Shown: positions 1,221-4,066 of the stretch, in pieces
Layout: the number at the start of each line of letters is the position of its first letter
How positions within the stretch are numbered: position 1 is the first letter of the stretch
From: Sphingomonas sp. MA1305
GTDB lineage: Bacteria; Pseudomonadota; Alphaproteobacteria; Sphingomonadales; Sphingomonadaceae
Assembly (NCBI RefSeq): GCF_016107325.1
Contig: NZ_RCVT01000001.1
Coordinates: 1,054,001 to 1,118,000 of the forward strand
Reading direction: 5' to 3'
Length of the DNA: 64,000 nucleotides
Program-made: the position numbers and the translations under genes
Notes under the pieces: generated by a model
The model's input: only the letters and a program-made list of their open reading frames with translations
Databases searched by the model: none
What the model was told of the DNA's origin: nothing

Positions 1221-1371
1221 GCCTTGTCCTTCGTTGGCCGATCGCTGACACCGCCCCATGCGATGCCCCTCCGGCTGTCGTCCATGCAATCGGGGCGGCA
1301 GGCAACGCCCACCGCCCCGTTCCATCCGGCCGCCCTTAGCCTCGGACGGCCGGAAAGGCAAGCCTCACGTC

Positions 1372-1703
1372 TTAGCGGAAGAGGCCGGGCCGCACCTCGA
1401 CGATCGTCCCGTTCGGACGGACCAGGATCGCGTCGCGGCCCGACCGCGCCCAGTAGAAGCCGCGCTGCGGCGCGCGCAGCCGATAGGTGCGATATTCGTT
1501 GATCGGCGATAGTTCGGCGCATAGCGGCGGTCGAACCGCTGGCCGGCGCGCCAAGTGCGCGTGGTCACGACGGTGGTGCCGTTCGGGCGCTCACGGACGG
1601 TGGTCACCTCGCGGCGCTGCTGCGGCGCGGCCTCCGCGGCGGTGGCGGCGAGCGGGCCGGCGATCAGCGTGGCGGCGATGGCGGAGAGGATGATCTTCTT
1701 CAT
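1372..1703 (-). pseudogene. RcnB-like small secreted protein with a one-base frameshift
   Basis: The first frame, from ATG 1703, gives a signal peptide (MKKIILSAIAATLIAGPLAA, then TAAEAA) and a basic segment ending TWRAGQRFDRRYAPNYR. The typical RcnB-like C-terminus, EYRTYRLRAPQRGFYWARSG then ILVRPNGTIVEVRPGLFR, follows in the next frame and stops at 1372. Adding one base near 1506-1509 joins the two into a 110-residue protein of normal size. RcnB-type proteins are small periplasmic proteins; RcnB itself takes part in metal homeostasis. Whether this is a real mutation or a base-calling error cannot be told from the sequence. No partner genes are nearby. Confidence 0.75.
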
Positions 1704-1899: not shown

Positions 1900-2859
1900 A
1901 TGCGGGCGTTCATCTTTCCCGGCCAGGGTAGCCAGGCGGTCGGCATGGGCAAGGCGCTGGCCGATGCCAGCCCGGTCGCACGCGAGGTATTTGGCGAAGT
2001 CGACGAGGCGCTGGGCCAGACCCTGTTCCGGTTGATGACGGAAGGGCCAGCCGATGCGCTGACCCTGACCGAAAACGCCCAGCCGGCGATCATGGCCAAT
2101 GCCGTGGCGACGCTGCGCGTGCTGGAGCGCGAGGGCAACGTCCGGCTGGCCGACAAGGCGGATTTCGTCGCCGGCCATTCGCTCGGCGAATATAGCGCGC
2201 TCTGCGCCGCCGAGGCGTTCGACCTCGCCACCACCGCGCGGCTGCTCAAGCGTCGCGGCCAGGCGATGCAGGCGGCGGTGCCGGTGGGCGAGGGGGCGAT
2301 GGCGGCGCTGCTCGGCGCCGACCTCAACAAGGCGCGGACGATCGCGGGCGCTGCGGTCGATTCGATCCTTGCGGAGGGTGGTGAGGAGCTCGTCTGCACC
2401 GTCGCCAACGACAACGACCCGTCGCAGGTCGTCATCTCCGGCCACCGGGTCGCGGTGGAGCGCGCCGTCGCCCTGGCGAAGGAACTGGGAGCCAAGCGCG
2501 CGCTGCTGCTGCCGGTGTCGGCGCCCTTCCACTGCCCGCTCATGCAGCCGGCCGCCGACGCAATGGATGCGGCGCTGGCCGACGCGCGCATCGCCGCGCC
2601 GCTGGTGCCGGTCTATGCCAATGTCGATGCCGCGCCGATCGCCGATCCCGGCGCGATACGCGCCTCGCTGGTGGCGCAGGTCACCGGTATGGTCCGCTGG
2701 CGCGAGTCGGTGCTGGCGATGGCGGACGCGGGCGTCACGCAGTTCGTCGAATTCGGCGGCAAGGTACTCGCCCCGATGGTCAAGCGCATCGCGCCGGACG
2801 TCGAGGCGATCAGCGTGGTGACGATGGACGATCTGGAGGATTGGCTTAAGAAGGCTTGA
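1900..2859 (+). CDS. fabD: Malonyl-CoA:ACP transacylase
   Basis: Transfers malonyl from CoA to acyl carrier protein for fatty-acid elongation. The 319-residue protein starts MRAFIFPGQGSQAVGMGKAL with the family's N-terminal signature, carries the nucleophile motif GHSLGEYSAL (Ser94), and has the SAPFHCPLM histidine motif near residue 205. The ATG at 1900 has AGGAG nine bases upstream; the frame extends further upstream but without FabD similarity. First gene of fabD-fabG-acpP-fabF, although separated from fabG by the repeat-bounded GxxExxY gene. Confidence 0.97.
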   Translation: MRAFIFPGQGSQAVGMGKALADASPVAREVFGEVDEALGQTLFRLMTEGPADALTLTENAQPAIMANAVATLRVLEREGNVRLADKADFVAGHSLGEYSALCAAEAFDLATTARLLKRRGQAMQAAVPVGEGAMAALLGADLNKARTIAGAAVDSILAEGGEELVCTVANDNDPSQVVISGHRVAVERAVALAKELGAKRALLLPVSAPFHCPLMQPAADAMDAALADARIAAPLVPVYANVDAAPIADPGAIRASLVAQVTGMVRWRESVLAMADAGVTQFVEFGGKVLAPMVKRIAPDVEAISVVTMDDLEDWLKKA

Positions 2860-2862
2860 TGG

Positions 2863-2888
2863 TCACGCGGAGGCGCGGAGGCGCGGAG
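2863..2888. repeat. Left arm of 26-bp inverted repeat bounding the GxxExxY gene
   Basis: Contains three tandem CGCGGAGG-type octamers starting right after the fabD stop. Its exact reverse complement lies at 3280-3305. The GGAG at its inner end sits five bases before the GTG start at 2894 and looks like the ribosome-binding site of the enclosed gene. Confidence 0.85.
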
Positions 2889-2893
2889 AAGAC

Positions 2894-3325
2894 GTGAGGG
2901 ATATCGACGCCGTCAGCGGCGACGTTCTTGACCTGGCGCTTCGTCTCCACCGGGAGCTCGGTCCGGGTATGCTTGAAAGCGTGTACGAAACGGTACTTGC
3001 CCGGCGCCTCACCGCAATGGGGTATGATATCGTCAGGCAGCGTCCCGTGGATATCGTTTCCGACGGCCAACGCTTCGCTGGCGCCTTTCGGGTCGACCTC
3101 CTCGTTGACGCACGTCTTGTCGTCGAGGTTAAATCGATTGAGCGGCTGACTGCCGCTCATGCCAAGCAACTGCTGACCTATCTCAGATTATTGAATCAGC
3201 CCGTAGGGCTGCTCATCAACTTCGGAGGCGCAACGCTGAAGGAGGGCGTGAAGAGGGTGGTGAACGACTATTCTTCTTCCTCCGCGCCTCCGCGCCTCCG
3301 CGTGAACAAGAATTTTGGAGGCTAG
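2894..3325 (+). CDS. GxxExxY family protein
   Basis: 143 residues with the family hallmarks: an N-terminal helix DAVSGDVLDLALRLHRELGP, the naming motif GMLESVY at about residues 26-32, and the PDDEXK-like strand pair FRVDLLVDARLVVEVKS near 67-83. The fold class suggests a nuclease-like core, but no function is established. The start is GTG at 2894, preceded by GGAGAAGAC from the left repeat. The last residues (SSAPPRLRV) are encoded by the right repeat. The stop TAG abuts the fabG ATG. The gene and its repeats interrupt fabD-fabG, which suggests insertion as a unit. Confidence 0.88.
   Translation: MRDIDAVSGDVLDLALRLHRELGPGMLESVYETVLARRLTAMGYDIVRQRPVDIVSDGQRFAGAFRVDLLVDARLVVEVKSIERLTAAHAKQLLTYLRLLNQPVGLLINFGGATLKEGVKRVVNDYSSSSAPPRLRVNKNFGG
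3280..3305. repeat. Right arm of 26-bp inverted repeat bounding the GxxExxY gene
   Basis: Exact reverse complement of 2863-2888, read as CTCCGCG octamers and ending in CGTGA. It is translated as the C-terminal residues of the GxxExxY protein. In a fabD-to-fabG transcript the two arms could pair into a long stem enclosing about 390 bases. Confidence 0.85.
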
Positions 3326-4066
3326 ATGTTCGATCTGACGGGAATGACCGCACTGGTGACGGGTGCGTCTGGGGGCATCGGCTCCGCGATTGCCAAGGGT
3401 CTGGCGGCGCAGGGGGCGCGGCTGGCGGTGTCGGGGAGCAATGCCGACAAGCTGGAGGCGTTTCGGGCCGAGCTCGGCGGCGATCACGTCGCCGTGCCAT
3501 GCAACCTGTCGGACGGTGCCGCCGTCGACGCGTTGGTGCCGCAGGCGCTCGCGGCGCTCGGCGGCAAGCTCGACATCCTCGTCAACAATGCGGGCGTGAC
3601 GCGCGACAATCTGGCGATGCGGATGAAGGATGACGAATGGGATCAGGTGATCCGAGTCAATCTGGAGGCTGCCTTCCGCCTGATCCGTGCTGCCGCCAAG
3701 CCGATGATGAAGGCGCGCTTCGGGCGCGTCGTGTCGATCACCTCCGTCGTCGGTCAGACCGGCAATCCGGGCCAGGCCAATTATGCCGCCTCTAAGGCCG
3801 GACTGGTCGGCATGTCCAAGGCGCTGGCGCAGGAGCTCGCCAGCCGTAACATCACCGTCAACTGCGTCGCACCGGGCTTCATCCGCTCGGCGATGACCGA
3901 CGTGCTGCCGGAGGCGCAGAAGAGTGCGCTGCTCGGCCGCATCCCGGCGGGCGACCTCGGCACGGGCGAGGACATCGCCGCCGCGGTCGTCTATCTCGCC
4001 AGCCGCGAAGCCGGCTATGTCACCGGCCAGACGCTGCACGTCAACGGCGGCATGGCGATGATCTAA
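3326..4066 (+). CDS. fabG: 3-oxoacyl-ACP reductase
   Basis: NADPH-dependent reduction of 3-oxoacyl-ACP in fatty-acid elongation. The 246-residue short-chain dehydrogenase has the cofactor motif TGASGGIG (12-19), NNAG at 87-90, and the catalytic Ser140, Tyr153 and Lys157 (ITSVVG, YAASK). It ends in the FabG signature TGQTLHVNGGMAMI. The ATG directly follows the GxxExxY stop, with TGGAGG seven bases upstream. The family is broad, but its place between fabD and acpP makes FabG secure. Confidence 0.96.
   Translation: MFDLTGMTALVTGASGGIGSAIAKGLAAQGARLAVSGSNADKLEAFRAELGGDHVAVPCNLSDGAAVDALVPQALAALGGKLDILVNNAGVTRDNLAMRMKDDEWDQVIRVNLEAAFRLIRAAAKPMMKARFGRVVSITSVVGQTGNPGQANYAASKAGLVGMSKALAQELASRNITVNCVAPGFIRSAMTDVLPEAQKSALLGRIPAGDLGTGEDIAAAVVYLASREAGYVTGQTLHVNGGMAMI

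Follow-up and report, generated by a model that had tools for sequence, protein, structure and literature searches.

A GxxExxY nuclease-like gene between fabD and fabG, seemingly the engine of an undescribed family of mobile hairpin DNA

Introduction

Why should a small gene of the GxxExxY family, enclosed by the two arms of a long inverted repeat, lie between fabD and fabG in Sphingomonas sp. MA1305? The unit was seen in the window, by which we mean the whole 64-kb stretch of DNA that was analysed, and the initial annotation proposed that it is a mobile or domesticated cassette in which repeat and gene co-evolve, and that the arms in addition provide a ribosome binding site and the end of the protein. 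GxxExxY proteins are annotated by motif only, and in the open-access literature GxxExxY, PF13366 and TIGR04256 returned passing mentions and no paper on this system. Searches of the same literature with the repeat strings and for Sphingomonas palindromes found no paper describing the dispersed hairpins reported below, and those for MITEs with a nuclease and for flanked nuclease families found nothing on this system. The cassette proves to be swapped among bacteria, and the genomes of the genus that have the gene are strewn with gene-less hairpins made of its repeat, so that the gene seems to drive a family of mobile DNA not described before.

Results

The unit and its arms

The unit consists of one GxxExxY gene between the arms of a perfect inverted repeat, which is 26 bp long and composed of CGCGGAGG-type units (Table 1), each arm being made of TCA and then three CGCGGAG(G) units; the alignment of the arm pair also scored as 29 nt at 97%. 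Apart from these arms, the window has no perfect inverted repeat above 16 bp when partners up to 1 kb apart are considered, and no second pair of triple-unit arms was found in the 64 kb. When 30 versions of the window were generated from a first-order Markov model, their longest inverted repeats averaged 14.6 bp and never exceeded 16, against the 26 bp observed, which rules out a chance origin. Both the bracketing and the placement of the unit were as first described, with a GTG start, a protein of 143 aa and a TAG stop (3323-3325) that directly adjoins the ATG of fabG at 3326. The flanking genes are those that we take to be fabD, from motif and gene order, and fabG. The tail before fabG is often alike in hosts with different cassettes.

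Table 1. Features of the unit and its flanks in the window.
Feature	Position	Strand	Basis
fabD (malonyl-CoA:ACP transacylase), left flank of insertion site	1900..2859	+	ORF; orthologue in 118/121 genus genomes
Left arm, TCA and three CGCGGAG(G) units	2863..2888	+	Exact two-unit copies dispersed in genome
GGAG at inner edge of left arm, possible Shine-Dalgarno, 5 nt before GTG	2885..2888	+	Sequence
GxxExxY gene, predicted PD-(D/E)XK nuclease superfamily, 143 aa	2894..3325	+	Profile matches, invariant residues, predicted fold
Right arm, reverse complement of left arm, encodes protein C-terminus	3280..3305	+	Sequence; in ORF of 52/54 allelic units
Tail, right arm to fabG, GGAGG ahead of fabG ATG	3306..3325	+	Sequence
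fabG (3-oxoacyl-ACP reductase), right flank of insertion site	3326..4066	+	ORF; flank identity comparison

The additional roles proposed for the arms held only in part. The GGAG that could serve as a Shine-Dalgarno sequence is present in the window, but arms of the GAAG type have no GGAG. The right arm is translated as SSAPPRLRV and lies inside the ORF in 52 of 54 fabD-fabG units, yet this C-terminus is the low-confidence part of the protein model (block pLDDT 72, 55 and 45), and in other lineages the gene may stop before the right arm (for example L185, L195 and L196). Translational coupling into fabG is possible in the 29 of 55 units whose stop lies at most 5 nt from the fabG ATG, whereas in the remainder the distance reaches up to 52 nt; 55 of 58 units were used here and for dN/dS, with G342, G371 and G395 outside both counts. 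The double duty of the arms is mostly incidental or only partly conserved, and the GAAG alleles, early stops and low pLDDT led us to reject both the Shine-Dalgarno role and a functional C-terminus as general features.

As a separate observation, a small secreted-protein gene upstream of fabD (1365-1703, minus strand) has an apparent frameshift that separates its N-terminus from a plausible C-terminus, NEYRTYRLRAPQRGFYWARSGRDAILVRPNGTIVEVRPGLFR, read in a different frame; the gene appears to be a pseudogene or the result of a sequencing error.

A predicted nuclease under purifying selection

The window protein belongs to the GxxExxY family, matching both TIGR04256 (1.8e-33, 115.4 bits against a cut-off of 35) and PF13366 (1.3e-33, 116.3 bits against a cut-off of 22) above the curated cut-offs, and PF13366 is its only Pfam match. 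Residues invariant in 44 sequences include G23, G25, Y31, D68, E78, K80, H89, Q92, N109 and R121. The arrangement D..ExK is the PD-(D/E)XK signature, and Q92-x3-Y96 resembles what we take to be the QxxxY motif of RecB-like nucleases. The AlphaFold model (pLDDT 87.7) gave the Cas4 protein SSO0001 as its top Foldseek match (E 1.3e-3), and a second structure aligner returned Cas4 SSO0001 (Z 9.5), a restriction-endonuclease-like protein (Z 8.4) and the Hjc resolvase (Z 6.9, a value in the range where the notes of that aligner advise caution). Among the weak fold matches were tRNA splicing endonucleases and I-Bth0305I (E 0.43), presumably a PD-(D/E)XK-like homing endonuclease. By its modelled fold and by D68, E78 and K80 the protein is assigned to the PD-(D/E)XK superfamily and predicted to be a nuclease. 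Profile searches with it gave no solved structure up to E 1 and no PHROGs match up to E 0.01. The median dN/dS among fabD-fabG alleles is about 0.16 (188 pairs), and the protein is therefore under purifying selection. A link to defence was considered and set aside, since the only PADLOC matches, to Cas4 and RTasPDDEXK, were weak (best E 0.00083) and we took them to reflect the shared fold.

Arms around GxxExxY genes in other genomes

The best inverted pair across each gene was scored against the same geometry on neighbouring DNA, with a threshold of at least 14. Arms were found at 75 of 80 loci in the named genome collection (1 of 457 control windows), at 24 of 30 among the best loci of a draw across the phylum (0 of 165), and at 15 of 20 further loci from the phylum draw and the genus that had been picked as distant or ill-fitting (1 of 106), the three sets overlapping in a few genomes. 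The 16 of 130 genes that have no arms at this threshold include a few at contig ends. Most of the 80 collection loci are from Sphingomonas, Sphingobium, Novosphingobium and Sphingopyxis, and 63 of them have both fabD and fabG beside the gene while 6 have one of the two.

Several families of Pseudomonadota show bracketing of the same kind. In f35, another family of this phylum, arm units are 8, 9 or 10 nt long with cores such as CACGAAG, CGCAGAG and CACAGAT, and one genome has another arm unit, CACGGACACTCACTGACGCTCACGGACG. What changes is the unit itself; the design, with about three short units to an arm, stays. Three loci on metagenome-assembled (MAG) contigs named Planctomycetota, Pirellula and Brocadiaceae (L147, L151 and L156) have CGCGGAG arms and a protein 54-60% identical, and four others (L148, L150, L152 and L155) have no arms at the threshold of 14; the Planctomycetota-named contigs represent either transfer across phyla or contamination of the assemblies.

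Arms also surround another kind of gene. In f35, four-helix-bundle genes of PF05635 lie between inverted arms at 7 of 13 loci (13 of 25 matches were scored, again with a threshold of 14, and controls once reached 15), and at L158, L160, L169 and L174 these arms are clearly built of 7-nt units (GTGAGAT, GTGAGGG). It is possible that these genes belong to a parallel hairpin system with another protein.

Occupied and empty sites

Only G007, G015 and G020 gave no fabD match, and these three, like G392, are outside the junction classes or the host tree. Among the 118 junctions of fabD and fabG in the genus, 62 carry the unit (broken in three), 37 have a spacer shorter than 45 bp, 17 have other spacers, one holds a decayed gene and one (G392, at fabD) could not be parsed. 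Remnants of the unit were recognised by eye at the junction in G012, G019, G021, G340, G344 and G403, the remnant in G021 being counted among the 37 short spacers. At the order level, the unit is absent from fabD-fabG in 8 outgroups with loci. The number of full-state changes at this site is 23 on the best tree, at least 15 of them forced by starred branches, and empty and filled alleles are interleaved on the host tree so that occupancy changes even among close relatives. The bare junctions in relatives, together with the copies of the repeat elsewhere in the genome that are described below, are the opposite of what a fixed and solitary insertion would give, and the idea of a mobile cassette therefore survives. 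No target-site duplication was seen by eye at fabD-fabG or at the ruvC-yebC site discussed below, the spacers being divergent enough to mask one.

At the same junction, three genomes (G009, G350 and G373; L021, L225 and L240) have an insert of 1.2-1.3 kb instead of the unit. These inserts carry an ORF on the minus strand, which in G009 matches acyltransferase family 3 (PF01757, 1.7e-28).

Exchange of cassettes between hosts

A tree of GxxExxY proteins from 59 intact units, based on a short alignment and with the broken units of G401, G415 and G422 left out, has 3 of 56 splits in common with the FabD+FabG tree, and 27 of its 30 supported splits conflict with supported FabD+FabG splits. The correlation between GxxExxY and host distances is weak (Mantel r 0.29), although above 500 permutations. 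Tree error does not appear to be the whole explanation of this conflict, to judge from direct sequence comparison: of 52 host pairs at least 95.5% identical in FabD+FabG, 39 have units less than 80% identical in DNA and the other 13 have units 86-97% identical. The gene is not inherited vertically, and the 27 conflicting splits and 39 divergent pairs rule out a strictly domesticated insertion. Of the two natures first proposed for the cassette, the mobile one is upheld by the empty sites and the swaps.

Eight swapped pairs, from hosts 97-99% identical in FabD+FabG, were inspected. Their flanks are 88-99% identical and their units 70-75%, the break in identity falls at the arms, and in three of the eight the last 50 bp of fabD drop to 76-80%. 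In the pair G365 and G424, for example, FabD+FabG are 98.8% identical and the tails before fabG nearly equal, while the units, one GGAG-armed and the other GAAG-armed, are 73% identical. What the hosts exchange at this fixed site is an arm-gene-arm cassette, and its breakpoints fall at the arms. Ordinary homologous recombination, in which the host swaps spacer alleles through homology in flanks and arms and the protein has no role, could in principle produce such alleles, as the conserved fabD and fabG flanks would suffice and the alleles have a common arm core, TC.CGC. We nevertheless consider this unlikely, for the near flanks keep the host sequence apart from the three dips just mentioned, swapping is frequent at this site, and the gene is under purifying selection.

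The arms follow the gene rather than the host. When 58 units were assigned to four classes of arm, the arm type changed 6 times on the GxxExxY tree, built for this purpose without the columns coded by the arm and again without the three broken units, and 28 times on the host tree, and shuffled labels gave about 28 changes on either tree. It follows that arms and gene move as one cassette, in keeping with the initial proposal that the two co-evolve. This concordance may be mere linkage, and by itself it is no proof that the protein recognises the arms, because arms and gene are linked. The two arms of a unit also vary together: when each arm was located by an independent anchor on its own side, left and right arms of the same unit have an identity of 0.912, compared with 0.740 for shuffled pairs (sd 0.015, maximum 0.795 in 5000). 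This count covers the 57 of 61 units with an anchor, G024, G420, G422 and G427 being outside it, and G404, whose spacer was not delimited, is outside the unit-identity, arm-type and covariation comparisons. The units change, yet the arms continue to pair.

Gene-less hairpins dispersed in the genome

Matches to CGCGGAGGCGCGGAGG with up to two mismatches occur at 53 places in the source genome and at 54 for the reversed control, so that the distant matches are noise. Exact repeats occur at 10 places, 3 of them within the unit's own arms and 7 elsewhere; the latter look intergenic when judged by eye, and among them are facing pairs separated by about 100 bp. The genome has one PF13366 gene as far as was found. 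The repeat is thus present elsewhere in the genome, and the expectation that each copy would flank a GxxExxY gene fails, being ruled out by the single gene and the several gene-less copies. At five places (L001, L005, L007, L008 and L017) an outer pair of CGCGAAG arms surrounds an inner CGCGGAG pair and a loop.

In four genomes, neighbouring repeats 23-300 bp apart were facing in 23 of 35 pairs, facing away in 4 and on one strand in 8, as counted for 100 of the 105 places among those listed, with intergenic position judged by eye; the median loop of the facing pairs is 84 nt. The short repeats accordingly form intergenic hairpins in pairs, and the dispersed hairpins that were examined have unrelated loops. 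Nesting is also seen between repeat types, a CGC hairpin lying within a CAC hairpin in G403. Two nested hairpins of different arm types, L008 (G000 C3:578433-578553) and L349 (G403 C20:53986-54190), are seemingly at the same site before a dnaE2-like gene (by eye) in two distant members of the genus, which suggests common target hot spots. In G405 and G406, the orthologous hairpins L299 and L304 have loops in opposite orientation, as if flipped through recombination between the arms.

A second intergenic site was followed among relatives, between genes read from the flanks as ruvC and yebC. A GGAG hairpin with a related loop is present there in 9 of 11 very close genomes. G018 has an unrelated palindromic insert. 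In G406 the GGAG hairpin is replaced by another, whose loop is unrelated and whose left arm, CGCGAAGGCGCAAAGGCGCGAAG, is identical to the left arm of the cassette that this genome has at fabD-fabG. What occupies the site is not simply a matter of the resident cassette, because G405 and G024, of the same cassette arm type as G406, keep the GGAG hairpin. The other 19 genomes with ruvC-yebC loci have octamer hairpins in G433 and G017, and short spacers or other sequence in the rest.

Other elements were seen at the ruvC-yebC site. L327, L330, L331, L332, L333 and L339 have palindromes of a different family, TCCTCCCCG...CGGGGAGGA. At L336 and L343 (in G422 and G004) there is a DUF559 gene on the minus strand (PF04480, E 1.8e-26 and 1.2e-28) amid CCCCTCCCC / GGGGAGGGG palindromes, perhaps a third gene-bearing palindrome element.

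The distribution of the hairpins bears on the possibility that the system acts in RNA, the arms forming a long stem for processing or stability of the fabD-fabG transcript and the protein binding or cutting RNA. RNase III removes the classical S23/four-helix-bundle (PF05635) intervening sequences from the 23S rRNA that contains them, and the cassette might be likened to these sequences. Covariation of the arms would also be expected from RNA pairing, and the weak fold matches include tRNA splicing endonucleases. Dispersal of hairpins and exchange of cassettes are, however, events in DNA, and the gene-less hairpins lie in many unrelated places and are nested in one another, so that we regard an explanation at the RNA level as very improbable.

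Gene presence and repeat number

Repeats were counted as the pattern CGCRRMGNCGCRRMGNCGCRRMG in 121 genomes of the genus, 65 of which have a PF13366 gene. The median number of triple-octamer repeats is 28 in the 65 genomes with the gene and 1 in the 56 without it, and at least four copies are present in 60 of the former and 6 of the latter; the reversed-pattern control has means of 2.2 and 0.4, respectively. In this genus repeat number is tied to gene presence. Relatedness was taken into account with independent pairs on the FabD+FabG tree, comparing intact units with the presence of at least four repeats, in a host tree where FabG of G373, G404 and G431 is missing and with the broken units of G401, G415 and G422 and the genomes having only a second-lineage gene scored as absent. 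The 15 pairs on starred branches had repeats changing the same way in 8.4, the opposite way in 0.5 and not differing in 6.1, with a median p of 0.016 (range 0.002-0.125).

Of the six gene-negative genomes with four or more repeats, G344 and G403 (19 and 8 repeats) carry deletion remnants of the unit at fabD-fabG and G020 (27 repeats) is 79% complete; G433 (7), G009 (6) and G350 (4) are outside the pattern. The five gene-positive genomes with fewer than four CGC repeats are G011 and G382, which have only a second-lineage gene (as does G022, with four CGC repeats), and G370, G414 and G426, which have the fabD-fabG unit yet 1-3 repeats and are also outside the pattern.

This second GxxExxY lineage, assigned from sequence, has CAC-type arms and was found in seven genomes of the genus (G011, G022, G364, G382, G389, G401 and, broken, G353), in six of them downstream of one TPP-enzyme gene. 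Repeats of the CAC type, own arms included, are present in all seven and in 4 of the 114 other genomes (p 5e-9), and each of the seven has at least one CAC-type copy away from the gene. Genomes of the genus that have the gene are rich in gene-less hairpins, those that lack it have few, and the second gene lineage goes with a second type of repeat. In lineage 1 there is only a weak tendency for dispersed repeats to match the arm type of the resident cassette (p 0.008, uncorrected for phylogeny): the median GAAG fraction is 0.25 in 24 hosts with GAAG or AAAG arms and 0.17 in 33 others, after leaving out 4 of 61 hosts with fewer than five other repeats, and with G404 outside the comparison.

These associations bear on a reading in which a free-standing nuclease gene of the homing type reinvades fabD-fabG, using the arms for its own recombination, and the dispersed hairpins are old relics or regulatory stem-loops. 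The fixed site, the sharp-edged replacement of alleles between near-identical hosts and the interleaving of empty and filled alleles on the host tree would all fit, as would the second lineage's own fixed site beside the TPP-enzyme gene. We judge homing alone decidedly improbable, in that it leaves both the near-zero number of hairpins in genomes without the gene and the match between repeat type and gene lineage unexplained.

In a draw of 299 genomes across the phylum, repeats were present in 34 of the 57 that have the gene and in 18 of the 242 that lack it, an association driven by which families have both gene and repeats. Within f35 there is no significant link, repeats being present in 28 of 45 genomes with the gene and 14 of 29 without it (p 0.34), in counts that include many incomplete genomes and only the 8-nt spacing. 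The gene might be a passenger, some other host or mobile enzyme moving the octamer hairpins and the GxxExxY gene being cargo between two arms, hence the co-occurrence. The f35 repeats without a detected gene speak for this, as does the occurrence of the arms both with and without the gene; PF05635 genes are bracketed as well, and therefore bracketed genes need not be one enzyme. Yet one would not expect a passenger to predict the number of repeats as strongly as the gene does in the genus, to be bracketed in the same manner in several families of Pseudomonadota, or to retain invariant D, E and K residues and a dN/dS near 0.16, and we think it unlikely that the gene is mere cargo.

Discussion

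On the evidence taken together, the unit is probably the gene-bearing member of a family of mobile hairpin elements run by the nuclease, in a way that resembles REPINs and their RAYTs, the action of the enzyme itself being inferred. The element would be an inverted pair of arms with about three 8-nt units each (CRCRRAG and one spacer base, with units of 9 or 10 nt elsewhere). In most copies the arms would surround about 80 nt of non-coding loop, and as a rule one copy per genome in this genus would enclose the GxxExxY gene. The RecB/Cas4-like PD-(D/E)XK protein may recognise the units of its own arms, probably as a cruciform or a single-strand hairpin, and could cut there. Repair or recombination after cutting might then copy the hairpin to new intergenic sites, or an incoming cassette could replace or invade the resident allele in a homing-like manner.

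A broader reading, which we put forward tentatively and as possible rather than probable, is that GxxExxY proteins serve as the enzymes behind mobile DNA that forms a class of its own. On this view a minimal RecB/Cas4-like nuclease would recognise tandem 8-10-nt units in inverted arms, gene-less hairpins would spread within the genome and the cassette would home into fixed intergenic sites of new hosts. The products would be repeats of the CACGAAG, CGCAGAG and CGCGGAG types in Pseudomonadota, and also in Planctomycetota provided that the MAG contigs can be trusted, with parallel systems in the PF05635 genes with arms of 7-nt units and perhaps in the DUF559 genes with CCCCTCCCC palindromes. Nuclease-driven hairpin elements of this kind would provide a testable role for GxxExxY proteins and a likely source for the dispersed hairpin repeats. 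The fabD-fabG site moreover offers a natural experiment, with different cassette alleles in near-identical hosts.

Comparison with known systems

Pairs of MITEs and insertion sequences are similar in having a gene-bearing copy and non-coding derivatives with the same ends. The GxxExxY unit differs from them in that only PF13366 matches were found and no DDE or HUH transposase, no target-site duplication was seen by eye among the divergent spacers of the two sites compared, and the loops of the dispersed hairpins examined are unrelated. Internal deletion derivatives were found at the cassette's own site, in G012 and G403. The intervening sequence in the 23S rRNA of Coxiella, described in one paper as a selfish, horizontally acquired element with a small ORF (PMC4990558), is comparable in its small ORF, and PF05635 genes in f35 are likewise bracketed by arms. 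Here, in contrast, the protein is of another family, PF13366, its gene lies between fabD and fabG and not inside 23S rRNA, and the PF05635 arms are mostly of 7-nt units.

Homing endonuclease genes are alike in several respects: a nuclease-type gene, a fixed site at a conserved locus, empty and occupied alleles and their sharp-edged replacement. Unlike these, the unit is intergenic, outside any intron or intein, has inverted octamer arms and is accompanied by dispersed gene-less hairpins.

In organisation the system resembles REPINs, in which short palindromic units are paired as inverted repeats, form extragenic hairpins and are linked to a gene, the repeats being commoner in genomes with that gene (PMC3116915, PMC8049555). 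The GxxExxY system has inverted paired hairpins, a link to a gene and more repeats where the gene is present. RAYTs are described as tyrosine transposases, single-copy and vertically inherited (PMC8049555). The window protein gave no match to a Y1-type (HUH) tyrosine transposase, Pfam returning PF13366 only; it is instead a predicted PD-(D/E)XK protein, the arms of its unit are built from octamers in tandem, and horizontal exchange moves the cassette between hosts at one fixed site. With neither a tyrosine transposase nor vertical inheritance, the system is not a member of the REPIN/RAYT group. If our reading is true, there would be a second enzyme class, besides the RAYT transposases, that is able to maintain REPIN-like populations of repeats.
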